A DNA stretch of 64,000 nt from Pseudomonas sp. LFM046 (GTDB lineage Bacteria > Pseudomonadota > Gammaproteobacteria > Pseudomonadales > Pseudomonadaceae), in contig NZ_JYKO02000001.1 of assembly GCF_000949385.2 (NCBI RefSeq), positions 4,102,770-4,166,769 of the forward strand, written 5' to 3'. The notes under the pieces are model-generated. The model was not told where the DNA came from and searched no databases. It saw nothing but the letters and a program-made list of their open reading frames with translations. Positions 1-47,016 of the stretch are shown here, piece after piece. Every line of letters starts with the position of its first letter. Positions within the stretch are counted from its first letter, which is position 1. The position numbers and the translations under genes are program-made.

Positions 1-3000
1 GTGTAGTTGGCGCGGTCGCCACCGAACACCGCCGTATCCACACTGTCATCGGTGTCGAGGATCTCGCGGACGATGCTCAGCTGGCTCGGGTTGATCTCGC
101 CGGAGAGCATGCGCGGAATCAGCTCCTGGATGCTCTGCACGGTCGTTACATTGGGGTTGCCGGTGACCTGCACGCGCACGTTGAGCCAGCGGTCGCCGTC
201 GATCAGGTCGTTGCCGCCACGGCCTTCGATGATGTCGCTGCCCGCACCGCCCAGCAGGATATTGCCGGCGCTGAAGGACACCACGCCAGGCCCGAAGGCA
301 TCGTCGAACAGGTCCTGCAGTCCGTTGATCAGGGCGATGTTGGTCAGGGTGCTGCCGAGTTCGCCATCGGTGGGGATGGTGGTGGCATCGGAGTGGTCGC
401 CCTTGAGGATGTCGCTGAACGAAGAACCGGAAAGCCCTTCGACTTCCGCGAAGCGGTCGAGCAGGCCGGCATTGGAGGCCGGGACCGGCGGTTCCACCAG
501 ATCGTTGACCAGCAGGTCGACATTGACGCCACGCGGATCGCCACGGTAAGTGGCCCAGTCCCAACCGGACATGCCGTCGAAGTGGTCGGAACCTTCGGAG
601 CCGACCATGATGTCGTCGCCGCCCTCGCCCATCACCTCGTCGAAGCCACCGCCACCGACGAAGACGTCGTTACCGGGCACCTCGTCGCGGGAGAACGGTG
701 AGAAGTTGTCGCCGGGGGCACCGTCCTGGGTGCCGATCTCGATCCAGTCGTCGCCTTCGTTGCCCGCGGTCTGCAGGTTGCCCTTGGCGCCGTAGATGAA
801 GTCATTGCCGGTACCGCCAAAGGTTTCCGACACGTCTTCGCCGGTGATGATGAAGTCACTGCCGCCACCACCGAGGATCAGGTTGAAGCCGTTGCCGCCG
901 TGGATGACGTCGTTGCCCTCGCCACCCTTGATGTTATCGTCGCCACCCCAGTCGGTAATGATGTCGTCACCCGCGCCGCCATCGAGGTTATCGACGCCGT
1001 CGCCGCCTTCCAGGCGGTCATTGCCGGCATCGCCCCAGAGGGTGTCATCGCCGATGCTGGCGATCAGGATGTCGTTGCCGTCCGTGCCGCCGAGCACCAC
1101 ATGATCCACGCCGGTGTAGCGCAGGTAGTTGGTATCGGGCCCGGCGGTGTCCGGGTTGTCACGGATTACCAGCCCCAGCAGCGGGTTGTCGCCCAGCGGG
1201 TCGGAGTTGCCGGCAATGCCGTCCGTCCCTACCACATCGTCGGCGGTTCCCTGGATACCATCGGCGCCCGCCTCGTTCAGGCCGGTGTGCTGCGCCAGTT
1301 GATTGACTTCGAGAATCCACGCCGGGGTGGAGAAGATGTCCGCCGGCAGCCGGGTGATGTCGGTGTTCTCCATCACCATCTTGGCGAAGGAGTTGTTCTC
1401 CATCTCGGTGAGGAAGTTCAGCCCTGCCAGGCGACTCAAGTAATAGAAGCGGTCGCCGTTCTGCAGCGCCTCCATCTGGGTCTCGAAGACGAAGTTGAAG
1501 GTGGAGCCAAGCAGGCCGCCGAACGGCATCTGCTGCTCGGCCAGGCCGCCGATCCAGAAGTCCACCAGATCCAGGCCGGTGGTGGTCACGCCGTTGGCGC
1601 CATTGGCCCAGGCCCCTGTGCTGTTCAGGAAGTCCAGTCGGTCGATGGGAACATTGGCCCCCGTGCCGAGGACAATTGCCATCGCCGCAGCGCGCTTGGC
1701 TTCCAGGCTCGTCGCCCCGGTGATCGTGGAGTGAGTCCCGTAAGCGGCGATGAAATTGATCAGGGACGTTTCATGCTTGAGGTTGTCCATGAAATCGACC
1801 CAGCTGGTGTAGGCCGCCAACTGGCTGTCGCCGGTCATCGCGTGGAACTCGCGGCGCGCGGCGTTCAGTGACGGAATACCGGTGTCGCGGCCACGGGCGA
1901 TGTTGATGGTGGCCAGGTCCAGTGGCAAGCCCAGCAGGTTGTTGCGCAAGGCTTCGGTTACGAACTCGTCGACCTCGTTGCCTTCCTGGCGGGTGGTACC
2001 GCGGATGATGGCCCCGGCCGCCGCTTCAGGCGTCGCGCCGCTGCCGGCGAATGCCAGCGGATTGAGGAAGGCAGTAATCAGGCCGATCTCGCTGCTGGCG
2101 AAATTCGGGTCGAGCCGGTCGATGGTCTCGGTCAGCATGGAGTGACCGAAGCGATAAACCGTGTGGGCGAACTCGGCGACGATGGCCGGGTTGATGGTGG
2201 CGTCGAAGCCGTTGGGCGCCAGGAATGCGTCGACGGCGGGCTGCACCTTGCGGGCGAACTCTTCGAACACGAGGTGCTGGTACTGCATCTCGGTACCGAA
2301 CTTGGCGGCCTGGAACAGACGCTCGCCGTTCCAGTTCAGCCCATCCGGGGTCGCTGGCACGGCAGCCACCGGCGTCAGCAACCACTGGTTGAGGAAAGCC
2401 AGGTCGCCGGAGGCCAGGATCACTTCCTTGGTGTGTTCGACCAGGCGGTTGTGCTCGGAGTGGAACACATGGTGAACGGCGGTCAGGCCGATGTTTTCGT
2501 TGGCGCGGCCATCGCCGGCCATGTAGTGGGCGTCCAGCAGCTCGTTGTCGTAGGTGGCCGAATTCCCGTCATCCACCCCGGCCACTGCGTCGGCATCGAC
2601 GCCCAGCAAGGCGCCGGTCTGGCTGTTGAATGGATTGGCGCTATGGGCGATGTCATCGAGGAAGGCATGGCCGGTGCGGATCGCGCCCACCAGGCTGATG
2701 GGTGCCGCTGGGTTGCCCTCGACCAGCACATTGCCGGGGAAGACCACTTGCGGGAATCCGTTCGGCCCCTTGATGAAATTGCCGTAGGCATCGGTGGCCA
2801 GCAGCGGGACGCTACCCACGTCGGCGTCGGTCAGGTCGATGCCGAGGATGTCGCGGGCCTGCGCCTTGACCACCGCCCAGGTCGCCATGCCACCCAACTC
2901 GACGTCGTCCGCCGTACCGAATCTGAGGTCTGCGCCCAGGTCACGATTGGTAATCAGCCGGCCGGTGGACACCGGGTCACCATCGGCATTCAGCTCGTAG

Positions 3001-3800
3001 GCACGCAGGAACACCTGGTGGGACGGGTGCGAGCTGTAGGTCTGATTCTGGTCGACGAAGGGCGAGGTGGTGTTCTGGGTTTCCTGGGTGTCATCGGCGG
3101 TGCCCAGCACGCCATCGGCTCCAGGACCGGCGAACTGGGTGGCGCGGGTCAGGACCAGGAAGTTGGTCTGGCTGCCCGGGACGAACAGCGGGTCGTCTTC
3201 CTGCAGCGGAATGAAGACAATCTCGTTGCCTCCCTTTGTAACCAGGTCCAGGCCATGGTCGAAGAATTGGCCGAAGAAGGTGAACCAGGTGTTGAAGGGG
3301 GCGGAAAGCCCTGCGTCCGGAGCGGTGTTGGGAGCAAACAGCGGCTGCCCGGCGGGGACCGGAACCCCGGCGAGGTCGAGCAGCGTGCCGACCGGGAATG
3401 GAACACCGCCAGGATCCAGTTGCGTGCCATCGGCCAGGACGCCGAAGCCGGCATCGACGAAGGTCTGGACCGCCGCCGGGTTGCTGATGGTCTGATCAAC
3501 GATCAGGTTGCTGATGATCCGCGGCTGGGAGTCGACCACCGTACCGCTGCCCAGGTAGGAGGTGCCGTCTTCTCCCGGACGGAATACCGGTTCCAGCATG
3601 CGCGGGAAGAGTTCGTCGGCAGCGCCGACGGTTTCCTGCCCGCCCAGCAGATGGTTGAAGGAGCCGTCCACCGTGCGCAGGCCCCAGGGCACTTGCGAGT
3701 TGGGCACAAGAGACGTCAGTTCGATGCCGGCCGCGTGGGCCTCGGCGATCAGGATCTGCTGGAGAATGAACTCGAGGTCAGACTTGATGAAGTTGGCCAT
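1..3800 (-). CDS. Giant animal-type heme peroxidase / RTX protein, 5' part only (runs off left edge)
   Basis: The frame is open from an ATG at 3800 to the window edge, about 1266 codons. A GAGGT Shine-Dalgarno lies about 10 nt upstream of the ATG. The N terminus (MANFIKSDLEFILQQILIAE) matches the other two giants. One animal heme peroxidase module is visible: distal FGQFFDHGLD with Asp181/His182, GDGRANEN with the catalytic Arg at about 432, and YRFGHSML with proximal His at about 553. Then come GGxGxDxx RTX nonapeptides (about residues 940-1010) and the start of the region that follows each module in the paralogs. By analogy it is a type-I-secreted, calcium-dependent extracellular peroxidase; the C terminus and any second module lie outside the window. 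Its leader carries a small ORF and a promoter shared with the third giant. Substrate unknown; Mn(II) or halide oxidation is conceivable from MopA/PehA-type relatives. Confidence 0.9.
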   Translation of the reverse strand, partial: MANFIKSDLEFILQQILIAEAHAAGIELTSLVPNSQVPWGLRTVDGSFNHLLGGQETVGAADELFPRMLEPVFRPGEDGTSYLGSGTVVDSQPRIISNLIVDQTISNPAAVQTFVDAGFGVLADGTQLDPGGVPFPVGTLLDLAGVPVPAGQPLFAPNTAPDAGLSAPFNTWFTFFGQFFDHGLDLVTKGGNEIVFIPLQEDDPLFVPGSQTNFLVLTRATQFAGPGADGVLGTADDTQETQNTTSPFVDQNQTYSSHPSHQVFLRAYELNADGDPVSTGRLITNRDLGADLRFGTADDVELGGMATWAVVKAQARDILGIDLTDADVGSVPLLATDAYGNFIKGPNGFPQVVFPGNVLVEGNPAAPISLVGAIRTGHAFLDDIAHSANPFNSQTGALLGVDADAVAGVDDGNSATYDNELLDAHYMAGDGRANENIGLTAVHHVFHSEHNRLVEHTKEVILASGDLAFLNQWLLTPVAAVPATPDGLNWNGERLFQAAKFGTEMQYQHLVFEEFARKVQPAVDAFLAPNGFDATINPAIVAEFAHTVYRFGHSMLTETIDRLDPNFASSEIGLITAFLNPLAFAGSGATPEAAAGAIIRGTTRQEGNEVDEFVTEALRNNLLGLPLDLATINIARGRDTGIPSLNAARREFHAMTGDSQLAAYTSWVDFMDNLKHETSLINFIAAYGTHSTITGATSLEAKRAAAMAIVLGTGANVPIDRLDFLNSTGAWANGANGVTTTGLDLVDFWIGGLAEQQMPFGGLLGSTFNFVFETQMEALQNGDRFYYLSRLAGLNFLTEMENNSFAKMVMENTDITRLPADIFSTPAWILEVNQLAQHTGLNEAGADGIQGTADDVVGTDGIAGNSDPLGDNPLLGLVIRDNPDTAGPDTNYLRYTGVDHVVLGGTDGNDILIASIGDDTLWGDAGNDRLEGGDGVDNLDGGAGDDIITDWGGDDNIKGGEGNDVIHGGNGFNLILGGGGSDFIITGEDVSETFGGTGNDFIYGAKGNLQTAGNEGDDWIEIGTQDGAPGDNFSPFSRDEVPGNDVFVGGGGFDEVMGEGGDDIMVGSEGSDHFDGMSGWDWATYRGDPRGVNVDLLVNDLVEPPVPASNAGLLDRFAEVEGLSGSSFSDILKGDHSDATTIPTDGELGSTLTNIALINGLQDLFDDAFGPGVVSFSAGNILLGGAGSDIIEGRGGNDLIDGDRWLNVRVQVTGNPNVTTVQSIQELIPRMLSGEINPSQLSIVREILDTDDSVDTAVFGGDRANY

Positions 3801-3836
3801 GTTGTTTACCTCAATCCGACAGCAATAAGTCAGGCC

Positions 3837-3862
3837 GAATCGCGCCCGCGCGGGTGCGATTC
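3837..3862. repeat. Inverted repeat in the 5' leader of the first giant gene
   Basis: GAATCGC and GCGATTC arms (7 bp) flank a CCCGC/GCGGG core, giving a near-continuous 12-bp GC-rich stem. It sits about 36 nt upstream of the giant's ATG. It could be a translational-control or attenuation hairpin, but no T-tract follows it on the minus strand, so it is not a standard terminator. Confidence 0.5.
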
Positions 3863-3999
3863 CACGTTTCGTCGAAGGAAAGCGATCAAGCCGGGCAAAT
3901 CGCAGTCGCGGCCGAACCCGCCAAGCCTTGGTAGTGGCTCAGTTCCGACTGAATGGATTTGTCCCTGTCAGCGGCCGTCGTCGAAGGCGGCGCGTAAGC

Positions 4000-4092
4000 T
4001 CAGGCGTGAGGTGGTCCGTGGAAACGGACGCGGGGGGCGGCACAGGTCGATGGGCCGTTCGGCCCACCGGGCGAGACTGAATCGATGCTCAT
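4000..4092 (-). CDS. Leader small ORF (30 aa) ahead of first giant peroxidase gene
   Basis: The ORF runs from ATG at 4092 to TGA at 4000, 30 codons, with GGGAG about 12 nt upstream of the ATG. The peptide begins MSIDSVSPGGPNGP and ends RFHGPPHA. The ORF at 28923-29009, in the same place before the third giant, also begins MS, also ends in HGPP plus one residue, and shares the GCTAGGGAG block upstream. The peptide has no signal sequence or membrane segment. Conservation of position, ribosome site and C-terminal HGPP at two loci argues for real translation. It may be a regulatory leader peptide, since Pro-Pro motifs can stall ribosomes, or a tiny functional peptide. No known family recognised. 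Confidence 0.55.
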   Translation of the reverse strand: MSIDSVSPGGPNGPSTCAAPRVRFHGPPHA

Positions 4093-4188
4093 TGCGGTGT
4101 TCTCCCTAGCACTCTTGTGGCCGGCGCCGCAGCTGCGTCCCTCAACGCCCCTGCGTGCCAAATAACAGTCATGCTCGTTCACACCCTG

Positions 4189-4217
4189 ACTAAAGTTCCG
4201 GGCCCATGCACTGTCAA
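4189..4217 (-). promoter_or_regulatory. Sigma-70-like promoter of first giant gene
   Basis: On the minus strand, TTGACA (4217-4212), a 17-nt spacer and TTTAGT (4194-4189) are followed by CAGG. The same boxes, spacer length and downstream CAGG occur at 29104-29132 before the third giant. In both, the -10 box lies exactly 389 nt from the giant's ATG. The upstream flank is AT-rich. Confidence 0.65.
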
Positions 4218-17318: not shown

Positions 17319-17338
17319 TCGGCCAGGCCCCCGGCCTC

Positions 17339-18016
17339 CTAATCACGGCCCTGGCTGACGGCGTACAGGCTGGCAGCCTGCTCTTTCTCCCAATGCCGCC
17401 GCACCGCTACCACGGCCTCGGTCCGGTTGCGCACATGCAGCTTGTACATGACATTGGTCATGTAGTACTTCACGGTCTTTTCGCTCAGTTCGAGCTTGAT
17501 GGCGACTTCACGATTGGTCAGCCCCTTCGCCACCTCGCGAATGACTTGCTCCTCGCGATAACTCAACTCGACCTTCTGCTTGTCACCGGTGTGCTTCCGA
17601 AGATTGCCCAGCAACTTGCCGGCGAGCTTGGCCGTGATGAAGGTTTCACCGTCAACGACGTTTCTGATCGCCATGACCAGTTCACGGCCGCTGATGCCCT
17701 TGAGCACATACCCCTGGGCGCCCGCTTCAAATGCGGAATAGGCATCCTCGATGGACTCGGACACCGTCAGCATCATGATCCTGACGTCCGGCGTACGCTC
17801 GGTGATTGTCCGGGCGGCGGCAAAGCTGTCACCCGGCATGTTCACATCCATCAGCAGGATGTCCGGAGCAAACCGCGTGGCAATGTCGACGGCATCGTCC
17901 GCCGACTCGCCCTGCTCGACTACCTCGAAGTCAGCAATTTTCTGCAGCGCCATTGCCACCCCATCCCGCAACAACGGATGGTCGTCGACAATGCCGATTC
18001 TGATCCTCGAATCCAT
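17339..18016 (-). CDS. NarL/LuxR-family response regulator
   Basis: 225 residues, with AGGAGG before the ATG at 18016. The receiver domain (1-120) has the acidic pair Asp11/Asp12 (DDHPLLRDG), phosphoacceptor Asp57 (LLMDVNMPG), Thr84 and Lys106. The C-terminal LuxR-type helix-turn-helix spans about 150-215 (LSYREEQVIREVAKGLTNRE, LSEKTVKYYM). Its 3' end faces the 3' end of the kinase gene, an unusual layout for a cognate pair. It lies 97 nt downstream of the third giant on the same strand, past a hairpin, so some transcription could come from read-through. Likely partner of the 15810-17318 kinase. Confidence 0.92.
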   Translation of the reverse strand: MDSRIRIGIVDDHPLLRDGVAMALQKIADFEVVEQGESADDAVDIATRFAPDILLMDVNMPGDSFAAARTITERTPDVRIMMLTVSESIEDAYSAFEAGAQGYVLKGISGRELVMAIRNVVDGETFITAKLAGKLLGNLRKHTGDKQKVELSYREEQVIREVAKGLTNREVAIKLELSEKTVKYYMTNVMYKLHVRNRTEAVVAVRRHWEKEQAASLYAVSQGRD

Positions 18017-18113: not shown

Positions 18114-21100
18114 TCAGCTCACGATGAAGTCCGCCTGGGTCACCGTAGTGGCATCCGCCACCCCCACCAGGGTGATGATGTTGGCCCCGATGGTCACTCG
18201 GGTATTCACCCCGACGTCGAGGATGGTGACGTTCGCCGCGAAGTTCGCCGCAGTGATACCCATGCCGGTGATGTCGATGTGGTCCTGGCCACCAGCCGGA
18301 TCGGCATCGAAGTCCAGGATGCGGTCCTGGCCGAAGCCGGCTCCGAACGCGAAGGTGTCGTTGCCCAGGCCGCCAATCAGGGTGTCGATGCCGCCCGCCC
18401 CGTTCAGGGTGTCGTTGCCCGCCCCCCCTCTGAGGGTGTTGGCCAAACCGTTGCCGGTGCCGTTGAAGTTGCCACTGCCTCCGTAGTTCAGGTTCTCCAG
18501 GTTGGCACCCAGGGTGTAGCTCGCCAGCGAGGTCCAGACGCTATCCGTGCCCGCACCGGCCAACTCGATCACCACATCGCCTGCATCGGTTACCTCGTAG
18601 GTATCGTTACCTGCACCACCGCGCATGGTGTCCGCGCCGCCCTTGCCCATCAGCACGTCGGTACCTGTCCCACCGCCCATCTGGTTGTCCAACGCATTGC
18701 CTGTGCCGGTGAAGTTGCCATTGCCGCCGTAGTTCAGGTTCTCCAGGTTGGCACCCAGGGTGTAGCTTGCCAGCGAGGTCCAGACCGTATCCGTACCCGC
18801 ACCGGCCGACTCGACCACCGTATCGCCTGCATCGGTGACCTCGTAGGTATCGTTCCCCGCACCACCGCTCATGGCGTCCGCACCGCCCTTGCCCATCAGC
18901 ACGTCATTACCAACGCCCCCGCTCATCTGGTTGCCCAGCGCATTGCCAGTGCCGGTGAAGTTACCAGTGCCGATGTAGCTCAGGTTCTCGACATTGGCAC
19001 CCAGGGTGTAGCTCGCCAGCGAGGTCAAGACCGTATCCGTACCCGCACCACCCGACTCGGCCACCACATCGCCCGCCTCGGTGACCTCGTAGGTATCGTT
19101 CCCCGCACCGCCGCGCATGGTGTCCGCGCCGCCCTTGCCCATCAGCACGTCGTTACCCACGCCGCCCACCAACAGGTTGTCCAGCGCGTTGCCCGTGCCG
19201 GTGAAATTGCCGGTGCCGCCGTAGAACAGGTTCTCGACATTGGCGCCCAGGGTGTAGCTCGACAGTGAGGTCCAGACCGTGTCGGTTCCCTCCCCGGCCA
19301 ACTCAGTCACTACATCACCGGCATCGGTTACCTCGTAGGTGTCGTTGCCCACACCACCGGCCATCACGTCGTTGCCCACCCCTCCGATCAGCGTGTCATT
19401 CCCGCCATCACCGTTGAGGGTGTCGTTGCCGGCCAGGCCGCGGAGGATGTCGTTGCCAGCGCCGCCATTGGCAATGTCATCCCCTGCGGTGCCGAGGAAG
19501 CTGTCCGCCCCGGGTCCACCGTTGAACAAGGCACCCACCACACTGGTCGCCGCCGAGACCACCGATTCAGCGGTGCCGCCATCATCGGTGAAACTCGCCA
19601 CCACCCGCAGCAGTTGGCCGACCTGCGCCGCGCCGACCGTGAAGTTCGCCCCCGTGGCACCAACGATGTTGGAGAAGGTCGCACCGCCGTTGGTGGAAAC
19701 CTGCCACTGGAAGCTGAACACCGAGGTGGTCGTGCCATCGGCATCGGCGATGGTCCCGCGGGTCGCGGTCAGCACCTGGCCCTGCGTCGGCGTGGTGTCG
19801 CTGATCGCCGGCGCACCGGTCGGCGCGTCGTTGACCGCGACGGTCGCGACCGGAGCTGTCACATTCGACAGTACGGTCTCCAGCACACCGTTGGCGTCCT
19901 TGTAGATCGCCATGACCCGCAGGTTCAGGCCAGCCTGGTCGGCGGTAACGCGGAAGGACCGGCCAGTAGCACGGGCGACCTCACCTGCGGCAAAGGTGAT
20001 GATGTCTTCGAAGATGCCGGACCCCGGGTTGGTTTCCACCTGCCAGTAATAAGACACCGGTCCGGTGATGGTGCCGCCGGGGTTGTCGGCGTCGGTCACG
20101 CCGGCCAGGGAAGCGGTGAGCAGCGTGCCAACTTCAGGCGTGGCGTCGCTGATGCTCACTGCGCCCACCGGCAGCGCATCGGTGCCGGACAGGTCGATGA
20201 CGCCGTCGGTGAACCGCAGGCGCTCGATGCTGTTCAGGTGGTCGGTGCCGTCACGGCCGGCCACCTGGTCGGCGACGGTCACGGTGCCATCCGCGTTCAC
20301 GGTCCAGACGTACTCGGACGAAAGCCCTTGATAGGCCGCTGTATCCAATGCAGCAGTCCCCTGCAGGAGCTCCCGCACGATCACCAGTTGCCCCGGGTTG
20401 TAGGTGCCGTTGACCATCAGCGGCACCATCTCCTTCATGGTGTTGAAGCTGGCGATCTCTGCACCGCTGCCGTCCAGGTTGGCCCGCACACTGATGCGCA
20501 CGTTCAACCATCTGTCACCATCGATCAGGTCATCGCCACCCCGTCCCATGATGATGTCGCTGCCGCTGCCGCCGAGGATGATATTGCCACCGTCGAAGAA
20601 GGCCACCGACGGCACGGCCACGGTACCGACCATCTGGTTGAGGAAGCCCTGCAGGCCCGAGATCAGGGCGATGTTGGTCAGCACGCTGCCCTTGGCGCCG
20701 GCCACGGGCAACGAAACGGCATCGGAATCGTCACCGCTCAGCACGTCGCCGAAGGCGGAACCCGACAGGCCCTCGACAAAGTCGAAGCGGGTCAGCACCG
20801 AGGCACCCGAGCCCGGCATCTGCGGCTGGTCGAAGAAACGATCGCTGATGTCGATGGTGACACCACGGGTATCGTTCTTGAAGGTCGCCCAGTCGTAGCC
20901 TGATCCACCGATGTAACGGTCGCCCTGGCCGGGGCTGCCGACCATGATGTCGTCACCGCCCTCGGCGTTGAACTTGTCGTTCTCGCCGCTGCCGACGTAG
21001 ACATCGTTGCCGGCGATCGGGTCGTTGCCTGCCGGGTCGAAGTTGTCGCCAGGGGCGCCATCGGAGGTACCGGCCTCCAGCCAGTCGTCACCTTCGTTGC

Positions 21101-24100
21101 CCATGTCCTGCTCGTTGGCCTTGGAGCCCAGGATGAAGTCGTTGCCCTGGCCACCGAAGGCTTCGCTGGCGTCCTCACCGGTGATGATGAAGTCCTTGCC
21201 GAATCCGCCGAGGATCAGGTTGACGCCGTTACCGCCCTGGATCACGTCGTTGCCGTTGTCACCCTTGATGTTGTCGTCGCCACCCACGTCCGTGATGATG
21301 TCGTCGCCGTCGCCACCATTGATGAAGTCATTGCCGTAGCCGCCATCCAGACGGTCGTTGCCGCCGTCGCCGTAGAGGGTGTCGTCACCCTCGCTGGAAC
21401 GCAGGATGTCGTTGCCGGCACTGCCGCCCAGCACCACGTGGTCTTCGCCGCGGTACATCAGGTAGTTGGTGTCCAGCCCGGCAGTCGCCGGATTGTCGCG
21501 ATCCACCAGCGGTAGCAGCGGGTTGTCGCCCAGCGGATCGGAGTTGAGGGCGATGCCGTCGGCGCCGATCACGTCGTCCAGAGTGCCCTGGATGCCGTCG
21601 GCCCCCGGGTCGTTGAGGCCGGTGTGCTGCGCCAGCGGATTGACCTCGAGGGTGAAGGCCGGGGTCAGGAAGACCACGCCCGGCAGGTGGGTGGCAGTGG
21701 TGTTGGCCATGATCAGCTTGGCGAACGAGTTGCCTTCCAGCTCGGCGTTGAAGTTCAGGCCGGCGGTGCGCTCCAGGTAGTAGAAGCGGTCACCGTCCTG
21801 GAGTTTCTCCAGCTGGTTCTCGAACACGAAGTTGAAGGTCGAGCCCAGCATGCCGCCGAACGGCGTGACCTTCTCGGCCAGGCCGCCGATCCAGAAGTCC
21901 ACCAGGTTGAGACCGGTTTCCACGCCGGTCCATGCGCCGGTGCCATTGAGGAAGTCCAGCCGGTCGGCAGGCGCCGTTGCCCCGCCCAGGACGATGGCGG
22001 TCGCAGCGGCACGCTTGTCGGCCAGCAGGGTGGCACCGGTGATGCTGGTGTGGGTGCCGTATGCCGCGATGAAGTTGATCAGCGACTCCGGATGCTTCAG
22101 GTGCAGCACCATGTCCGCCCAGCTGACGTAGGGCTTCAGGTTGGCGTCGCCGGTAGCTTCATAGAACTGCGCACGAGCATGGTTGAGCGTTGCCACGCCC
22201 GTATCGCGACCACGGGCGATGTTCAGCGTGGCCAGGTCCAGCGGCAGGCCGACCAGGTTGTTGCGCAGGGCTTCGGTAACGAACTCGTCGATCTGGTTGC
22301 CCACGGTGCGGGTCACACCACGCACGATGGCACTGGTGGCGTCTTCCGGGGTCACCCCACTGGCGGCATAGGCCAGCGGGTTGAGGAAGGCAGCGATCAG
22401 GCCCAGTTGCTGGTCGTTGGTCGGGTGCAGCGGGTCGACCGTGACCGGGTTGAAGTTGGCGTCGAAGCGATCGACCGTCTCGGTCAGCATCGAGTGGCCG
22501 AAGCGGTAAACCGTGTGGGCGAACTCGGCGACGATCGATGGATCGAGGTTGACGTCATAGACCTGCGTCGGCGCGAAGAACGGGTCGACGTTGGGCTGGA
22601 TGGTCCGCGCGAACTCCTCGAACACCAGGTGCTGGTACTGCATTTCGGTACCGAACTTGGCGGTCTGGAACAGACGCTCGCCATTCCACTGCAGGGCATT
22701 GATCTCGGCCGCAGTGATCGGGAAGGCTGCAGGAGCCGTACCCGGCAGCAGCCACTCGGTGAGGAACGCCAGGTCGTTGCTGGCCAGCACGGTGCTCTTG
22801 GTCTGTGCCACCAGGCGGTTGTGCTCGGAGTGGAAGATCGCGTGCACGGCGGTCAGGCCGATGTTCTCGTTGACCCGGCCGTCACCGGCCATGTAGTGCG
22901 CATCCAGCAGCTCGTTGTCGTAGGTCCCCGCTGCCGGCGGGGTGCCGACGTTGATGACGTTGTCCGCATCCGCGGTCAGACCGCCGGTAGGATCGGCGCT
23001 GTGAGCGATGTCGATGAGGAACTGGTGACCGGTGCCGACCGCACCGGCCAGGCTGATACCCAGACCGCCGTTGGCGGCCGGATTGCCTTCGACCAGCACA
23101 TCGTCAGCCGTACCCGGCAAGCCGTCAGGACCGACGAAGACCACTTGCGGGAAGCCGTTCGGACCCTTGATGAAATTGCCATAGGCGTCGGTGGCCAGCA
23201 GCGGCACGTTGAAGACGTTGGCATCGGTCAGGTTGATCCCGAGGACGTCACGGGCCTGAGCCTTGACCACCGCCCAGGTGGCCATGCCGCCGATTTCCAC
23301 ATCGTCGGCAGTGCCGAATTCGCCATCTGCACCCAGATTGCGGTTAGTGATCAGCTCACCGGTCGCTACCGGACCATTGGGCGTGGAGATGTACTCCCGC
23401 AGGAACACCTGATGCGACGGATGCGAGGTGTAGGTCTGATTCTGGTCAACGAACGGAGAAGTCGTGTTCTCGTTCTGCCCAGGCACACCGCCCAGTTGGG
23501 TGGCACGGGTGAGGACCATGAAGTTGGTCGGACTACCGGGCACGAAGCGCGGATCGTCCGGTTGCAGCGGGATGAACACCGTCCCACTACCGCCCTTGGT
23601 CACCAGGTCCAGGCCGTGGTCGAAGAACTGGCCGAAGAAAGTCATCCAGGCGTTGAACGGCGCGGTCAGGCCAGCGTCCGGCATGGTGTTGGCGATGAAG
23701 TTCACCTGCTGGTCATCGGCCGTGCCGAACAGACCGTCCAGGCCAGGGCTGGTCACGACCAGGTTGCCCTCCTTCAACACGTCGTCGGCCGTTCCGAGAA
23801 TCCCGTCCACACCCGGATCGAAGGTCGACGCCACCGCCGCCGGGTTGTTGGCGGTCTGGTCGACGATCAGGTTGCTGATGGTGCGCGGAGCGGTGTCCAC
23901 CACGCTGGTGGAGCTGTTGTAGTTGGTGTTGGTAATGCCCGTCGCGGCGGAGAAATTCGGGTCGCCCTGGCCGTTGGTGAACTCCGCTGGCAGCAGCCGC
24001 GGGAAGGCATTGTCGGCAGCGCCGAACTGGCTCTGATCGATGCCGGAGAAGTTCAGCAGGTTGTTGAACTCACCAGTGACGGTACGCAGCCCCATGGACG

Positions 24101-27100
24101 CACGCACGTTCGGCAACAGCGACAGCAGATCGACGCCTGCTGCATGGGCCTCGGCGATGCGGATCTGATCAAGGATGAAGTTCAGGTCCGAACGCACCAG
24201 TTGAATGCCAGGGCCACTCTGGGCCACGCCAGGCCCCAGGTCGACCACCGGAGTGGGCGGCGGCGGGATGAAGGCTGCCACGGCAGCGGAAGGCGCGGAG
24301 AACACCTGTTCGGTGACGCCGCCAGCATCCTGATAGACGCCCTTGACCCGAATCGACAGGCCGGCAAGGTCCGGCGTGATCCTGAAGCGGATACCGTTGG
24401 CACTCTGGAAGGCCAGGTCGCCTGCCGGTGCGGCAATGATGTCCTCGAATACGCCGGTACCCGGAACGCGTTCGACCTGCCAGACATAGTTGACGTTGGT
24501 GATATCGCCACCGGGGTTGTCGCCGTCGGACACACCGGCCGCGGAGACGGTCAGGAAATCACCCACCTCCAGGGCACCGCCATTGGTGTCAGTGATGGCA
24601 AGGGAGCCCACGGGTTCGATGTTGAGGCCGGGGACCAGCACCTGGACAGCGTCGGAGAACTGGATGCGCTCGACGTTGGTCAGACGGTCGATGCCGTCAC
24701 GGCCAGCCACCGAGTCGGTCACCGTCCAGGAACCATCGGCATTGGCCACCACCGTGTAATCGGCGGCGAGTCCCTGGTAGTTGGCGGTGTCGAAGGAGGC
24801 ACCACCATTGAGCAGTTCACGCACCGCCACCAGTTGCCCCGGGTTGAAGGTGCGGTTCAGCATCAGCGGGACCAGGTCCTCCATGCTGTCGAAGCTGGCG
24901 ATTTCCGCGCCGGTGCCATCGGCATTGGCACGCACGCTGATACGCACGTTCAGCCACAGGTCACCATCGATCAGGTCGTTGCCGCCGCGACCTTCCATGA
25001 TGTCGCTGCCGCCACCACCGAGGATGATGTTGCCGCCGATGAAGGTGTTCACCAGGTCGTCCGCGGTGCCGAGAATGGCGTCCGCGCCCACCGAGGCCTG
25101 GTCACCCAGGAAAGCCCGCAGGCCGGTGATCAGATCGAGGTTGGTCAGCGCACCACCGGTGGCGCCGCCATGGTTGATGATGGTGGTCGGGTCCACGTCA
25201 TCGCCGCGCAGGATGTCCGCGAAGTCGGAGCCAGACAGACCTTCCACTTCGGCGAAACGGTCGAAGATCGAGGCCGGCGACTGCGCCACCGGGAAGGCAA
25301 TGTGGTCACCCACCTCGCCGATGCCGAGGAAGGCCGCCAGGGCCAGGTCGACGGTGACGCCGATGTTGTCATTCTTGTAAGTGACCCAGTCGTAGCCGGA
25401 CATGCCGTCCATCTTGTCCTGGGCATCGCTGCCCACGAAGATGTCGTCGCCGCCCTCGCCGATCATCTCGTCGAAACCACCGCCACCGACGAAGATGTCG
25501 TGACCGATCACGTTGTCAGCCAGCAGGGGCGCGAAGTTGTCGCCGGGCGCACCATCCTGGGTGCCCTTCTCGATCCAGTCGTTACCCTCGTTGCCGGTGG
25601 GCGGCAGGCTGGTCTTGGCGCTCAGGATGAAGTCGTCGCCCTGGCCGCCAAAGGTGGTGGACATGTCTTCGCTGGTGACGATGAAGTCCTTGCCGTTGCC
25701 ACCGAGGATCAGGTGCCCGGCGCCGCCGGCCATCATGTTGCCGACATGGATGACGTCGTTGCCGTCACCGCCCTCCATGCGGTTGTCGCCGCCGGCATCG
25801 GTGAGGATGTCGTCGCCGGCACCACCCATGACGGTGTCGTTGCCGTAGCCGCCTTCCAGTTCGTCATTGCCGCCATCACCGTAAACGGTGTCGTCGCCGT
25901 CGCCGGAGATGATGGTGTCGTCAAGCGCGGTGCCACCGAGCACTACGTGGTCTTCACCGGTGTAGCGCAGGTAGTTGGTTTCCACGGCGGCGGTATTGGG
26001 GTTGTCGCGCATCACCAGCGGGTTGATTTCAATACCGTTGATGATGATGCCCCCAATGGGATCGGAGTTGCCGGCGATACCGTCCGCGCCAACCACGTCA
26101 TCCGCCGTGCCCTGGATGCCATCCGGGCCGGGGTCGTTCAGGCCGGTGTGCTGCGCCAGCGGATTGACCTCCAGGGTCCAGGTCGGGGTGGAGAAGATCG
26201 CGTTGGACAGGTGGGTAGCATCGGTGTTGAGCATCACCAGTTTGGCGAAGGAGTTGTTCTCCAGCTCGGTGCCGAAGTTCATCCCGGCAGTGCGCGACAG
26301 GTAATAGAAGCGGTCACCGTTCTGCAGGGACTCCAGCTGGGTCTCGAAGACGAAGTTGAAGGTCGAGCCCAGCTTGCCGCCGAAGGGCATCTTCTCTTCT
26401 GCCAGGCCGCCGATCCAGAAGTCCACCAGGTCCAGGCCGGTGGTGGTGACGCCGTCGGCGCCGCTGGCCCAGGCCCCGGTGCTGTGCAGGAAGTCCATGC
26501 GGTCAGCCGGTTCGCCGGCACCGCCCAGCACCAGCAGGGTCGCAGCGGCACGCTTGGCCGCCATGGTGGTAGCGCCAGTGATGCTGGAGTGGGTGCCATA
26601 GGCGGCGATGAAGTTGATCAGCGATTCCGGGTGCTTCAGGTGATCGAGGAAGTCCACCCAACTGGTGTAGGCGGTCAGTTGCTCGTCACCGGTCATGTGG
26701 TAGAACTCGCGGCGCGCAGCGTTCAGCGAAGGAATGCCGGTGTCACGACCACGGGCAATGTTCAACGCAGCCAGGTCCAGCGGCAGGCCCACCAGGTTGT
26801 TGCGCAGGGCTTCGGTGACGAATTCGTCGATCTCGTTGCCCACGGTGCGGGTCACACCACGGACGATGGCGCCGGCCGCAGCTTGCGCCGTCGGTCCGCT
26901 GGCGGCGAAGGCCAGCGGGTTGAGGAAGGCGGCGATCAGGCCGAGTTGCTGGTTGTTGGTCGGGTGCAACGGGTCGACGGTGACCGGGTTGAAGTTCGGG
27001 TCGAAGCGATCGATCGTCTCGGTCAGCATCGAGTGGCCGAAACGGTAAACCGTATGGGCAAACTCAGCGACGATGGACGGATCGATGGTGGTGTCATAGC

Positions 27101-28715
27101 CGGTTGGCGCCAGGAACTCGTCCACTTGCGGCTGGATAGTGCGGGCGAACTCTTCGAACACCAGGTGCTGGTACTGCATCTCGGTGCCGAACTTGGCGGC
27201 CTGGAACAGGCGCTCGCCGTTCCAGTCCAGGGCCGCGATATCCGCAGCAGCGACCGGGAAGGCCGTTACCGGAGTCAGCAGCCACTGGTTGAGGGTGGCC
27301 AGATCGGCGGCGGTAGCCAGGGCACCGGGAGACAGCAGCGTGGTCTTGGTCTGTTCCACCAAGCGGTTGTGCTCGGAGTGGAACACGTGGTGCACGGTGG
27401 TCAGGCCGATGTTTTCGTTGACCCGGCCGTCACCGGCCATGAAGTGGGCGTCCAGCAGCTCGTTGTCATAGGTGCCGGCTGCCGGCGGGGTGCCGACGTT
27501 GATGACGTTGTCGGCGTCCGCGGTCAGGCCACCGGTGGGGTCGGCGCTGTGGGCGATGTCGATGAGGAACTGGTGGCCGGTGCCGACCGCACCGACCAGG
27601 CTGATCCCCAGACCGCCGTTGGCGGCCGGATTGCCTTCGACCAGCACGTCGTCAGCCGTACCCGGCAAACCGTCCGGACCGACGAAGACCACCTGCGGGA
27701 AACCGTTCGGGCCCTTGATGAAGTTGCCGTAGGCATCGGTGGCCAGCAGCGGCACGTCGAAGACGTTGGCGTCGGTCAGGTTGATCCCGAGGATGTCACG
27801 GGCCTGGGCCTTGACCACCGCCCAGGTGGCCATGCCGCCGATCTCCACATCGTCGGCGGTACCGAATTGACCATCGGCGCCCAGGTCACGGTTGGTGATC
27901 AGCTTGCCGGTGGCATGGGGATGACCATCGGCACCGATCTCGTAGGCACGCAGGAAGACCTGGTGTGACGGGTGCGAGCTGTAGGTCTGGTTCTGGTCGA
28001 CGAAGGGCGACGTGGTGTTCTGGTTCAGGCCGGGGCCGCCGAACTGGGTAGCGCGGGTCAGGACCATGAAGTTGGTCGGACTGCCTGCGACGAAGCGCGG
28101 GTCGTCCGGCTGCAACTGAATGAAGATGACGTCATTGCCGCCCTTGGTTACCAGGTCCAGGCCGTGGTCGAAGAACTGGCCGAAGAAGGTCATCCAGGCG
28201 TTGAACGGGGCGGACAACCCGACGTCAGACGCAACGTTCGGGATGAAGAAGGTCGGCTTGTCATCCGCCGTGCCGAACAGCCCGTCGAGGCCGGGGCTGG
28301 TCACGATCTGGACGCCGTCCTTCAACACATCGTCGGGCGTTCCGAGAATCCCGTCCACGCCGGGATCGAAGGCCGCCGCCACGGCCGCCGGGTTGCTGGC
28401 GGTATCATCGACGATCAGGTTGCTGATGATGCGCGGCTGGGAATCGAACACCGTACCCGTCGTCTGCGCGTAGTTGGTTCCCAGCTCGGCTGGCCGGAAC
28501 ACCGGGTCCAGCAGACGCGGGAAGATGTTGTCCGCAGCGCCGAACTCCGACTGTCCCAGGAGCAGGTTGTTGAACGAGCCATCGATGGTGCGCAAACCGA
28601 AAGGCACCTGCACGTTGGGGAGCAAGTCCAGGAGGTTCTCCCCGGAAGCATGGGCCTCTGCGATGAGAATCTGCTGAAGGATGAAATCCAGGTCCGCAAG
28701 GTTGAAGTTGGCCAT
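18114..28715 (-). CDS. Giant tandem double animal-type heme peroxidase with C-terminal RTX repeats (3533 aa)
   Basis: Paralog of the second giant. The start is the ATG at 28715 (MANFNLADLDFILQQ), with GAGGAATC about 12 nt upstream. Module 1 key residues are Asp183/His184 (FGQFFDHGLD), Arg431/Glu434 (GDGRVNEN) and His561 (YRFGHSML). Module 2 begins near residue 1505, with Asp1699/His1700, Arg1947 and His2074. RTX GGxGxDxx blocks and Ig-like segments follow each module. The C-terminal RTX region (from about 3062) has four 82-residue repeats, and the last residues (TQADFIVS) resemble a type I secretion tail. The xDGxxGTxDD-type motif occurs 11 times. No Sec signal and no transporter gene in the window. 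The leader contains a small ORF and a promoter matching those of the first giant. Confidence 0.93.
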   Translation of the reverse strand: MANFNLADLDFILQQILIAEAHASGENLLDLLPNVQVPFGLRTIDGSFNNLLLGQSEFGAADNIFPRLLDPVFRPAELGTNYAQTTGTVFDSQPRIISNLIVDDTASNPAAVAAAFDPGVDGILGTPDDVLKDGVQIVTSPGLDGLFGTADDKPTFFIPNVASDVGLSAPFNAWMTFFGQFFDHGLDLVTKGGNDVIFIQLQPDDPRFVAGSPTNFMVLTRATQFGGPGLNQNTTSPFVDQNQTYSSHPSHQVFLRAYEIGADGHPHATGKLITNRDLGADGQFGTADDVEIGGMATWAVVKAQARDILGINLTDANVFDVPLLATDAYGNFIKGPNGFPQVVFVGPDGLPGTADDVLVEGNPAANGGLGISLVGAVGTGHQFLIDIAHSADPTGGLTADADNVINVGTPPAAGTYDNELLDAHFMAGDGRVNENIGLTTVHHVFHSEHNRLVEQTKTTLLSPGALATAADLATLNQWLLTPVTAFPVAAADIAALDWNGERLFQAAKFGTEMQYQHLVFEEFARTIQPQVDEFLAPTGYDTTIDPSIVAEFAHTVYRFGHSMLTETIDRFDPNFNPVTVDPLHPTNNQQLGLIAAFLNPLAFAASGPTAQAAAGAIVRGVTRTVGNEIDEFVTEALRNNLVGLPLDLAALNIARGRDTGIPSLNAARREFYHMTGDEQLTAYTSWVDFLDHLKHPESLINFIAAYGTHSSITGATTMAAKRAAATLLVLGGAGEPADRMDFLHSTGAWASGADGVTTTGLDLVDFWIGGLAEEKMPFGGKLGSTFNFVFETQLESLQNGDRFYYLSRTAGMNFGTELENNSFAKLVMLNTDATHLSNAIFSTPTWTLEVNPLAQHTGLNDPGPDGIQGTADDVVGADGIAGNSDPIGGIIINGIEINPLVMRDNPNTAAVETNYLRYTGEDHVVLGGTALDDTIISGDGDDTVYGDGGNDELEGGYGNDTVMGGAGDDILTDAGGDNRMEGGDGNDVIHVGNMMAGGAGHLILGGNGKDFIVTSEDMSTTFGGQGDDFILSAKTSLPPTGNEGNDWIEKGTQDGAPGDNFAPLLADNVIGHDIFVGGGGFDEMIGEGGDDIFVGSDAQDKMDGMSGYDWVTYKNDNIGVTVDLALAAFLGIGEVGDHIAFPVAQSPASIFDRFAEVEGLSGSDFADILRGDDVDPTTIINHGGATGGALTNLDLITGLRAFLGDQASVGADAILGTADDLVNTFIGGNIILGGGGSDIMEGRGGNDLIDGDLWLNVRISVRANADGTGAEIASFDSMEDLVPLMLNRTFNPGQLVAVRELLNGGASFDTANYQGLAADYTVVANADGSWTVTDSVAGRDGIDRLTNVERIQFSDAVQVLVPGLNIEPVGSLAITDTNGGALEVGDFLTVSAAGVSDGDNPGGDITNVNYVWQVERVPGTGVFEDIIAAPAGDLAFQSANGIRFRITPDLAGLSIRVKGVYQDAGGVTEQVFSAPSAAVAAFIPPPPTPVVDLGPGVAQSGPGIQLVRSDLNFILDQIRIAEAHAAGVDLLSLLPNVRASMGLRTVTGEFNNLLNFSGIDQSQFGAADNAFPRLLPAEFTNGQGDPNFSAATGITNTNYNSSTSVVDTAPRTISNLIVDQTANNPAAVASTFDPGVDGILGTADDVLKEGNLVVTSPGLDGLFGTADDQQVNFIANTMPDAGLTAPFNAWMTFFGQFFDHGLDLVTKGGSGTVFIPLQPDDPRFVPGSPTNFMVLTRATQLGGVPGQNENTTSPFVDQNQTYTSHPSHQVFLREYISTPNGPVATGELITNRNLGADGEFGTADDVEIGGMATWAVVKAQARDVLGINLTDANVFNVPLLATDAYGNFIKGPNGFPQVVFVGPDGLPGTADDVLVEGNPAANGGLGISLAGAVGTGHQFLIDIAHSADPTGGLTADADNVINVGTPPAAGTYDNELLDAHYMAGDGRVNENIGLTAVHAIFHSEHNRLVAQTKSTVLASNDLAFLTEWLLPGTAPAAFPITAAEINALQWNGERLFQTAKFGTEMQYQHLVFEEFARTIQPNVDPFFAPTQVYDVNLDPSIVAEFAHTVYRFGHSMLTETVDRFDANFNPVTVDPLHPTNDQQLGLIAAFLNPLAYAASGVTPEDATSAIVRGVTRTVGNQIDEFVTEALRNNLVGLPLDLATLNIARGRDTGVATLNHARAQFYEATGDANLKPYVSWADMVLHLKHPESLINFIAAYGTHTSITGATLLADKRAAATAIVLGGATAPADRLDFLNGTGAWTGVETGLNLVDFWIGGLAEKVTPFGGMLGSTFNFVFENQLEKLQDGDRFYYLERTAGLNFNAELEGNSFAKLIMANTTATHLPGVVFLTPAFTLEVNPLAQHTGLNDPGADGIQGTLDDVIGADGIALNSDPLGDNPLLPLVDRDNPATAGLDTNYLMYRGEDHVVLGGSAGNDILRSSEGDDTLYGDGGNDRLDGGYGNDFINGGDGDDIITDVGGDDNIKGDNGNDVIQGGNGVNLILGGFGKDFIITGEDASEAFGGQGNDFILGSKANEQDMGNEGDDWLEAGTSDGAPGDNFDPAGNDPIAGNDVYVGSGENDKFNAEGGDDIMVGSPGQGDRYIGGSGYDWATFKNDTRGVTIDISDRFFDQPQMPGSGASVLTRFDFVEGLSGSAFGDVLSGDDSDAVSLPVAGAKGSVLTNIALISGLQGFLNQMVGTVAVPSVAFFDGGNIILGGSGSDIIMGRGGDDLIDGDRWLNVRISVRANLDGSGAEIASFNTMKEMVPLMVNGTYNPGQLVIVRELLQGTAALDTAAYQGLSSEYVWTVNADGTVTVADQVAGRDGTDHLNSIERLRFTDGVIDLSGTDALPVGAVSISDATPEVGTLLTASLAGVTDADNPGGTITGPVSYYWQVETNPGSGIFEDIITFAAGEVARATGRSFRVTADQAGLNLRVMAIYKDANGVLETVLSNVTAPVATVAVNDAPTGAPAISDTTPTQGQVLTATRGTIADADGTTTSVFSFQWQVSTNGGATFSNIVGATGANFTVGAAQVGQLLRVVASFTDDGGTAESVVSAATSVVGALFNGGPGADSFLGTAGDDIANGGAGNDILRGLAGNDTLNGDGGNDTLIGGVGNDVMAGGVGNDTYEVTDAGDVVTELAGEGTDTVWTSLSSYTLGANVENLFYGGTGNFTGTGNALDNLLVGGVGNDVLMGKGGADTMRGGAGNDTYEVTEAGDVVAESGGAGTDTVLTSLASYTLGANVENLSYIGTGNFTGTGNALGNQMSGGVGNDVLMGKGGADAMSGGAGNDTYEVTDAGDTVVESAGAGTDTVWTSLASYTLGANLENLNYGGNGNFTGTGNALDNQMGGGTGTDVLMGKGGADTMRGGAGNDTYEVTDAGDVVIELAGAGTDSVWTSLASYTLGANLENLNYGGSGNFNGTGNGLANTLRGGAGNDTLNGAGGIDTLIGGLGNDTFAFGAGFGQDRILDFDADPAGGQDHIDITGMGITAANFAANVTILDVGVNTRVTIGANIITLVGVADATTVTQADFIVS
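18451..19368 (-). repeat. 246-bp tandem repeat, about four copies, inside third giant gene
   Basis: The gtgtag landmark recurs at 18514, 18760, 19006 and 19252, the same exact 246-bp period as in the second giant. Unit sequence is almost interchangeable between the two genes, making this a likely site of gene conversion or unequal recombination. Confidence 0.9.
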
Positions 28716-28922
28716 TTTTGCTGATTCCTCAATTCCGACTGCGTAAGGGCGTGCGCCGTGGCAGCAAGGACAGGGCTCCACGCTTTCGACTTGACTACGG
28801 GATGTGGGGGGACGAGATGACGCCTGCCTTCAAGCGGCGCAGGTGCGAGCGCTACTCATGCACTTGAGCAGGTGGTTCTACCCCTTTTTGCGCCGGACAA
28901 TTGACGTCGGCGCCGTGGGTCA

Positions 28923-29009
28923 TCAGCCCGGCGGACCGTGAATTTCGGTGAGGTAAGAGGCAATGGGGGGCATCGCCCCTGACGGCGGGATCAGCGAAAC
29001 AGTGCTCAT
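28923..29009 (-). CDS. Leader small ORF (28 aa) ahead of third giant peroxidase gene
   Basis: The ORF runs from ATG at 29009 to TGA at 28923, 28 codons, with GGGAG about 10 nt upstream inside a GCTAGGGAG block shared with the 4000-4092 ORF. The peptide starts MSTVSLIPPSGAMPP and ends EIHGPPG, so it contains three Pro-Pro pairs. The counterpart before the first giant ends RFHGPPHA. Position relative to the promoter (95 versus 97 nt from the -10 box) and to the giant is conserved. Candidate regulatory leader peptide or tiny functional peptide; no family recognised. Confidence 0.55.
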   Translation of the reverse strand: MSTVSLIPPSGAMPPIASYLTEIHGPPG

Positions 29010-29103
29010 GACGAACTCCCTAGCGTGTGTTGTTCCCCGGCTAAGGCTGCAGCGCCCTCACGATGCAGCTGCCCGCAAAGCGAAACAATCTCTTACACAC
29101 CTG

Positions 29104-29132
29104 ACTAAAGATTCGCCAAAAAACACTGTCAA
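29104..29132 (-). promoter_or_regulatory. Sigma-70-like promoter of third giant gene
   Basis: On the minus strand, TTGACA (29132-29127), a 17-nt spacer and TTTAGT (29109-29104) are followed by CAGG. It is identical in both boxes and spacing to the promoter at 4189-4217. The predicted leader to the giant's ATG is about 380 nt. Confidence 0.65.
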
Positions 29133-29435
29133 GCGACCGTCGGATAGGCCTTAACATCGAAAAATAGGCACGTAACTTGTTGTTTTATATCGTCTTTAAT
29201 CGGAAATATTATCTTACAAAGATGATAATCCCTGGCAATTAGCCCCGGTCAAACGCCCCCCACCACTCATCGAACCAGCCCGGAACGCCCGAGATAGAGC
29301 CATCCGAGCAGTGTCTTTCCGTTAATCCGCTGTTTGCCACCGCCCGGAAGAGCCGGCCCTGATGGGCACAGTGTGCGGTCACGAGCGCCAGAAAACCGTG
29401 CTTTTTGCCTGATCGAAGGTGGGGATAAAGGAGAT
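29133..29435. other. Intergenic AT-rich region upstream of third giant's promoter
   Basis: About 29133-29235 is AT-rich with short runs of A and T and fits an upstream activating or silencing region for the promoter at 29104-29132. The remainder to 29435 shows no gene; the 151-codon minus ORF at 29267-29722 is a shadow of sfnR. Confidence 0.4.
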
Positions 29436-46882: not shown

Positions 46883-46898
46883 TGGCATGTGCCTTGCG
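46883..46898 (+). promoter_or_regulatory. Sigma-54 promoter of nasA fusion gene
   Basis: TTGGCATGTGCCTTGC followed by G: GG at 46884-46885 and GC at 46896-46897, 10 nt apart, close to TGGCACG-N4-TTGCW. The predicted start is about 108 nt before the ATG at 47017. Confidence 0.8.
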
Positions 46899-47016
46899 AT
46901 AGCCCCGGCAAGGCAATCAATGCCGATTGCCCATCCCACGACAAAGGCGCCGTGTCTCCCCCGTTTCGAACGGAGGGTGGCATGGCGCTTTTTCGTTTCT
47001 GCGGCAGGTGTTGGAT

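Follow-up and report, generated by a model that had tools for sequence, protein, structure and literature searches.

The 64,000 nucleotide stretch of Pseudomonas sp. LFM046 analysed here (assembly GCF_000949385.2, contig NZ_JYKO02000001.1, positions 4,102,770 to 4,166,769; hereafter the window) contains three very large peroxidase genes, here called giants A, B and C. Giants A and C are each preceded by a short upstream open reading frame (uORF) that ends in the amino acids His-Gly-Pro-Pro (HGPP) and one or two further residues. The original prediction, made from the letters of the window, had described the two small ORFs as paralogues with a common ribosome-site block and HGPP ending, and had suggested selection on the peptide end, as in stalling leader peptides, or else a tiny secreted or modified peptide. 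Both ORFs are where that prediction placed them and are read from the minus strand, with GCTAGGGAG before each and HGPP near the end (Table 1). From a comparison of this locus with its relatives we consider it probable that each uORF is a translated, cis-acting ribosome-arrest leader peptide controlling extracellular oxidases.

The two leaders share more than had originally been noticed. About 120 nucleotides (nt) upstream of the uORF both contain the block TTGACA-N17-TTTAGTCAGG, which by its sequence can be read as a promoter, and which in a scan of the genome is confined to these two places at up to 2 mismatches. A scan with the sigma-70 consensus passes it over, since the second hexamer of the block bears little resemblance to TATAAT. 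The leader of giant B is different and has neither the promoter block nor an HGPP uORF. Giants B and C were identified through Pfam, and giant A through the likeness of its N-terminal module.

Table 1. Coordinates of the two leaders and of the giant peroxidase genes within the window
Feature	Position	Strand	Remarks
uORF C	28923..29009	minus	28 codons, translates to MSTVSLIPPSGAMPPIASYLTEIHGPPG*; homologous uORFs
HGPP codons of uORF C	28929..28940	minus	CAC GGT CCG CCG; predicted arrest site
Ribosome-binding site of uORF C	29016..29024	minus	GCTAGGGAG
Promoter-like block, leader C	29100..29132	minus	TTGACA-N17-TTTAGTCAGG
Hairpin directly 3' of uORF C	28890..28913	minus	pairing in alignment A2
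Leader C, 3' part	28716..28889	minus	conserved among relatives, predicted structured
Giant peroxidase C	18114..28715	minus	start at 28715; animal haem peroxidase domains and RTX repeats (Pfam)
uORF A	4000..4092	minus	30 codons, translates to MSIDSVSPGGPNGPSTCAAPRVRFHGPPHA*
HGPP codons of uORF A	4009..4020	minus	CAC GGA CCA CCT; predicted arrest site
Ribosome-binding site of uORF A	4102..4110	minus	GCTAGGGAG
Promoter-like block, leader A	4185..4217	minus	TTGACA-N17-TTTAGTCAGG
Hairpin directly 3' of uORF A	3971..3993	minus	alignment A3
Leader A, 3' part	3801..3970	minus	conserved, predicted helices
Giant peroxidase A	1..3800	minus	start at 3800; extends past left window end
Giant peroxidase B	4631-15415		start at 15415; between giants A and C

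A 60-residue profile of the N-terminus of the giants was used to search 398 genomes of the family, 40 of which match. Together with loci fetched earlier, this search gave 69 distinct leaders (individual leaders are denoted by L numbers), chosen without regard to the motif except for those fetched by the promoter pattern. Identical leaders do not enter the set, nor do L031 and L032, which are internal second-module starts, or the loci L012, L015, L016, L028, L030, L033, L036, L109, L110, L111 and L113, in which the N-terminus pattern was missed; L109-L111 have HGPP uORFs that were picked up by the later uORF profile. A motif was called when HGPP, RGPP or HDPP lay 120-330 nt before the gene with an in-frame start codon at most 41 codons upstream. 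The original prediction had proposed looking for an HGPP-ending ORF in homologous leaders, and such a motif uORF is found in 57 of the 69 (HGPP 54, RGPP 2, HDPP 1), with H in 55 and R in 2 at the first position, and G in 56 and D in 1 at the second. Under a stricter rule, with a ribosome site, a start 150-360 nt upstream and a motif beginning at residues 21-28, 50 of the 69 leaders qualify against 0.03 expected per shuffled set, and this result in homologues excludes chance. When all 20 xGPP combinations were tried at the strict place, H was found 49 times, R once and the others not at all, and the reversed control motif PPGH occurred once. AGGGAG precedes 35 of the 57 uORFs. Past the motif there are 0-7 residues in 53 of the 57 and more in 4, the full range being 0 to 56; among the long tails are those of L106 (56 residues) and L107 (24). 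In L108 a perfect inverted repeat, about 20 bp long and lacking a T run, comes directly after the uORF, which ends in HGPPPP.

Selection on the end of the peptide is clearly visible. The ratio of nonsynonymous to synonymous polymorphism (pN/pS) in three groups of 15, 15 and 11 leaders is 0.07, 0 and 0 at HGPP, compared to 0.65, 0.96 and 1.23 in the middle of the uORF in the same groups, and values of 1.2-2.0 were obtained when the motif region was read in either of the other frames; the counts in a group are not independent, because its leaders are related. HGPP is thus kept as amino acids in an open frame, as had been suggested from the two ORFs of the window. Among the 57 uORFs, Gly and the second Pro are each encoded by all four of their codons and His by both of its own, leaving the third base free at these three positions, and therefore it is the peptide that is kept and not a word in the DNA or RNA. 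The first Pro codon is CCG in 35, CCA in 21, CCT in 1 and CCC in 0 of the 57, while the 388 Pro codons of the giants in the window are CCG 265, CCC 82, CCT 25 and CCA 16; this bias perhaps reflects frameshift avoidance or shared descent. Directly before the His, Phe is commonest (33/57), and Arg or Glu is found one position further upstream in 42 of the 57. In an alignment of 38 peptides (A5), the invariant or nearly invariant residues are M1, H, G, P and P alone. It contains no conserved Cys, and so no CXXC metal site, no conserved Trp or Asp position and, judged by eye, no conserved hydrophobic segment in the 22-24 residues before H.

The distance from the start codon to the motif is nearly fixed. 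With starts picked by ribosome site and ATG, 54 of the 57 uORFs have the His 22-24 residues past the start, and L046, with 16 residues, is a clear exception. The spread of the distance from start to HGPP is 3.4 nt, a figure that includes manually reassigned starts for L078 and L096 (25 and 24 codons instead of 7 and 38), compared to 11.1 nt for the distance from HGPP to the gene. The giant itself starts 175-239 nt after HGPP.

Within the genus, 14 of 18 genomes have the promoter pattern, at 30 places together, and in all 30 of these leaders the uORF ends with HGPP (HDPP in L045) plus 0-4 residues. In 52 of the 57 leaders a TTGAC precedes the uORF start by 102-126 nt, in a search that covered 90-150 nt. 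A different element, GGAGAGGG, lies about 45 nt upstream of the uORF in L094, L096, L106, L108, L157, L164, L180 and L183. It resembles an additional ribosome site that has no start codon of its own, and most leaders of groups C and A have TGAGGGC or TGAGGGA at its position. AnGGA words like those of RsmA/CsrA sites are seen at the ribosome site of the uORF and after the hairpin in groups A and C, in each of which six leaders were inspected.

The same kind of uORF occurs before a second, unrelated gene family. A profile built from 38 uORF peptides and run on 19 genomes matches uORF C with an E-value of 3e-7 and uORF A with 8.8e-9, both of which belong to its own input, and it led to MDSSAVHHRVARLFAATRLAPALHGPPLAKVLP, a uORF before another oxidase-type gene. 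The product of this gene has a twin-arginine signal match slightly under the Pfam cut-off and matches to the PhsA, FtsP and CueO models with E-values of 1.6e-27 to 5.8e-17, far below the curated cut-offs, and the gene is therefore called multicopper-oxidase-like. Of the 398 family genomes, 24 have relatives of it, and every one of these also belongs to the 40 with giants. From 70 matches listed, 30 loci were taken, with at most 4 candidates scored per genome, and an HGPP uORF with the His after 22-23 residues precedes 6 of them (L152, L157, L161, L164, L180 and L183); in L152 it is at 1272-1373 on the minus strand, 31 nt upstream of the gene. TTGACA-N17-TT[TA]A[GC]T lies 118-124 nt upstream in 4 of these 6 leaders, in L180 TTGACG and CTTAAGT stand closer together, and the remaining leader, given as L156, has no block. 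The GCTAGGGAG site is found in 3 of the 6. When the profile was extended with the oxidase uORFs and run on 34 genomes (one without giants and 33 of the 40 that have them), it gave 46 matches with E <0.01, 40 before peroxidase genes and 6 before oxidase-like genes, matches from which the profile was in part built; none of the 46 lies before a sec or yidC gene. Four weaker matches of the first uORF profile were inspected, three of which have HGPP or RGPP; one is the uORF of L152 and two look like chance. Among 369 genomes of the class, the uORF profile A6 matched that of Pseudomonas sp. LFM046 alone, at E-values up to 5e-4, and an HGPP uORF was absent at ten homologous starts examined outside the family.

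A hairpin follows the uORF. All 57 leaders allow one to be drawn, of varied strength, in the first 65 nt past HGPP. The alignment for the group of giant C (group C), with 14 of 15 leaders (without L029), has 92% of cells paired compared to 33-60% when slid, and 4 pairs are changed on both sides, a number reached by 5 of 500 shuffles. In group A, aligned for 11 of 16 leaders (without L038, L050, L061, L064 and L065), 97.4% of cells are paired and one pair is changed on both sides, and in the third group (GM, 11 leaders plus L085) 71.9% are paired with three such changes (2 of 500 shuffles). The evidence for the hairpin is weaker in group A and the third group than in group C. Further downstream, the 3' part of leader C has a mean column identity of 88% and helices paired in 95.7% of cells with no compensatory pair, and that of leader A 85% and 99.1% with one compensatory pair. 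No intrinsic terminator was detected within 28700-29260, Rfam gave no match there up to E 1, and leader A had no Rfam match in the window scan at the gathering score.

HGPP has been described as a stalling motif. HGPP and RxPP are reported as elongation stallers from random-library screens in Escherichia coli, and HGPP is under-represented in proteomes (PMC7897499, PMC12992588, PMC10951233). RGPP generally gives the most robust arrest (PMC12992588), and HGPP has served as one of the query motifs for the RQH family of arrest peptides (PMC10987492). Since the four conserved residues are ribosome-stalling ones, we infer a cis-acting arrest peptide. The stalling leader suggested in the original prediction thus gains indirect support, from the published activity of the motif and from the two leaders in which RGPP takes its place.

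The closest relatives in kind are the RAPP-like arrest peptides (ApdA, ApdP, ApcA and the RQH family), which are likewise uORFs with a C-terminal motif of the [R/H/Q]-[A/G]-P-P type. Those described in PMC10987492 precede secA, secDF or yidC, while the uORFs here precede extracellular oxidases; in Streptomyces lividans, seven RAPP/RGPP peptides are found before other genes (PMC12992588). The uORFs here differ from the RAPP-like peptides in having about 28 codons, HGPP and a nearly fixed length, and would be a variant of this kind. Two copper-sensing systems (PMC9426467, PMC9973294) are the nearest precedents for the step from stall to gene. The CruR uORF of Bordetella also has a C-terminal RAPP and is required for expression of the downstream gene, with the stalled ribosome proposed to block Rho termination (PMC9426467). 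CruR has 145 residues, is predicted to be exported and has a copper-binding CXXC, in contrast to the 22-24 residues before the motif and the lack of a conserved Cys here. CutF of Rhodobacter capsulatus has a stalling-like end and regulates the multicopper oxidase CutO, with a stem-loop before the oxidase gene; delayed export opens this stem-loop, which shields the ribosome site of the oxidase (PMC9973294). CutF is an exported copper sensor, whereas the chain here is probably too short for export at arrest, and folding suggests no such shielding. In searches of the open literature on arrest peptides, stalling, RTX proteins, manganese oxidation and multicopper oxidases, no description of these leaders was found; the word "peroxidase" is absent from the main text of PMC12992588, the widest survey of RAPP-like peptides, and "leader" from that of PMC9765421.

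Translation of the uORFs, stalling in them, the sign of the control and its route to the gene are what we infer from these observations, and the proposed course of events is as follows. The promoter about 120 nt upstream would make the mRNA, on which the uORF would be translated first. At about 26 residues the ribosome would halt, its P-site tRNA carrying ...HGP and its A site holding the final Pro codon. A chain of about 26 residues fits inside the exit tunnel. Because the chain at arrest would not extend far beyond the tunnel, the signal for release would have to be intracellular, such as a tunnel ligand, the translational state or a translation factor, and not the pull of a secretion machine. 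TnaC-type leaders also act in cis and end in proline at about 24 codons, and TnaC has a conserved Trp and Asp at a fixed distance before the terminal Pro; such Trp and Asp positions are not conserved in the uORFs here. Unlike in TnaC, the stall would be expected inside the ORF and not at the stop codon, because the frames of L106 and L107 run on past the motif. The halted ribosome would stand right before the hairpin, the pairing of which is kept while its letters change, and halting or running on would set how much mRNA of the giant gene is made or kept. For this last step we consider attenuation of transcription or an effect on mRNA stability more likely than an unmasked ribosome site.

Other explanations have to be weighed against the cis-acting arrest leader. 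Rather unlikely, in our estimate, is a plain uORF whose slow Pro-Pro end protects the mRNA or couples transcription to translation, so that HGPP slows the ribosome without regulation. The near-neutral middle and the lack of conserved ligand-binding residues besides HGPP are what such a uORF would look like, and it is hard to see how it would explain the near-fixed length from start to HGPP, the preference for His before GPP or the occurrence before two oxidase families. A stalled ribosome that unmasks the ribosome site of the giant, as reported for CutF and cutO with its shielding stem-loop (PMC9973294), is improbable: the giant starts 175-239 nt from HGPP, and in folding of 52 leaders the footprint of the stalled ribosome changes the predicted access to the site from 0.465 to 0.466, up in 3 leaders and down in 2.

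We give very little credence to a released peptide acting in trans, whether small and secreted, modified or signalling. The conserved ends and open frame would suit it, and the original prediction had offered a tiny secreted or modified peptide as one option; the drifting middle, the tail of 0 to 56 residues, the lack of a conserved core beyond HGPP and the position of every profile match with E <0.01 in cis before an oxidase gene all disfavour it. Hardly credible at all is selection on the RNA or DNA with the reading frame incidental. The high identity of the 3' leader in two groups together with its predicted structure, and a first Pro codon that is nearly always CCG or CCA, could be taken that way, and yet differences in HGPP are nearly all synonymous, pN/pS is above 1 in frames +1 and +2, and the motif lies outside the modelled helices.

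Several observations weigh against the arrest leader itself. Motif-less leaders make up 12 of the 69, including that of giant B (L014). Among the others are L034, L035 and L037 (from Ensifer and a Rhizobium metagenome-assembled genome) and L112; L086-L088, where the promoter block is just 205-283 nt from the gene; and L095, L098, L099 and L100, which retain the block at about -405, the first three of these with a remnant ...LHGSxTA that has lost its prolines. The oxidase-like leaders without an HGPP uORF are 24 of 30. The residues preceding HGPP matter for arrest (PMC10951233), while here they drift, and elongation factor P (EF-P) may relieve such stalls in cells (PMC10987492). On the RNA side, covariation in the group A hairpin is no better than in shuffles (117 of 500 reach it), and the 3' leaders of the window fold no better than shuffles (z of -0.19 for C and -0.78 for A). 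The unchanged access to the ribosome site on folding, which led us to reject unmasking, also belongs here, as does the rejection of a general Rho loading site: a Rho-site-like pattern is found in 29 of the 57 leaders, where shuffles give 15.1 and the opposite strand 4, and in 3 of 16 leaders in group A.

As for the surroundings, the interval 15810-18016 between giants B and C holds genes for a histidine kinase and a response regulator of the LuxR/NarL type, which are possible regulators of the cluster, a sigma-54 activator lies beyond the leader of giant C, and a narK RNA (Rfam RF03032, 56.2 bits) is found at 46884-46953 on the plus strand.

Of the three mop peroxidase genes in Pseudomonas resinovorans MOB-513, two show induction by Mn(II) and cyclic di-GMP (c-di-GMP), and P. 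putida GB-1 overproduces MopA when fleQ is deleted (PMC9765421). The typical enzymes of manganese oxidation are multicopper oxidases and animal haem peroxidases (PMC11930936). Tentatively, and with somewhat more doubt than belief, we suggest that the promoter, strong ribosome site, fixed-length HGPP arrest peptide and hairpin form a portable cassette, and that the extracellular metal-oxidase-type enzymes of pseudomonads behind it make up a regulon. Arrest in this cassette would be gauged by length, with four residues at a set distance from the start codon and no specific nascent chain, and it would read an intracellular state such as manganese, haem, c-di-GMP or EF-P function. A conserved arrest-type leader would be a specific and easily mutated control point before such genes, and if this is true, regulation by arrest peptides extends to environmental enzymes of the manganese-oxidase type. 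The fixed length together with the drifting middle also poses the question of what an arrest motif requires.
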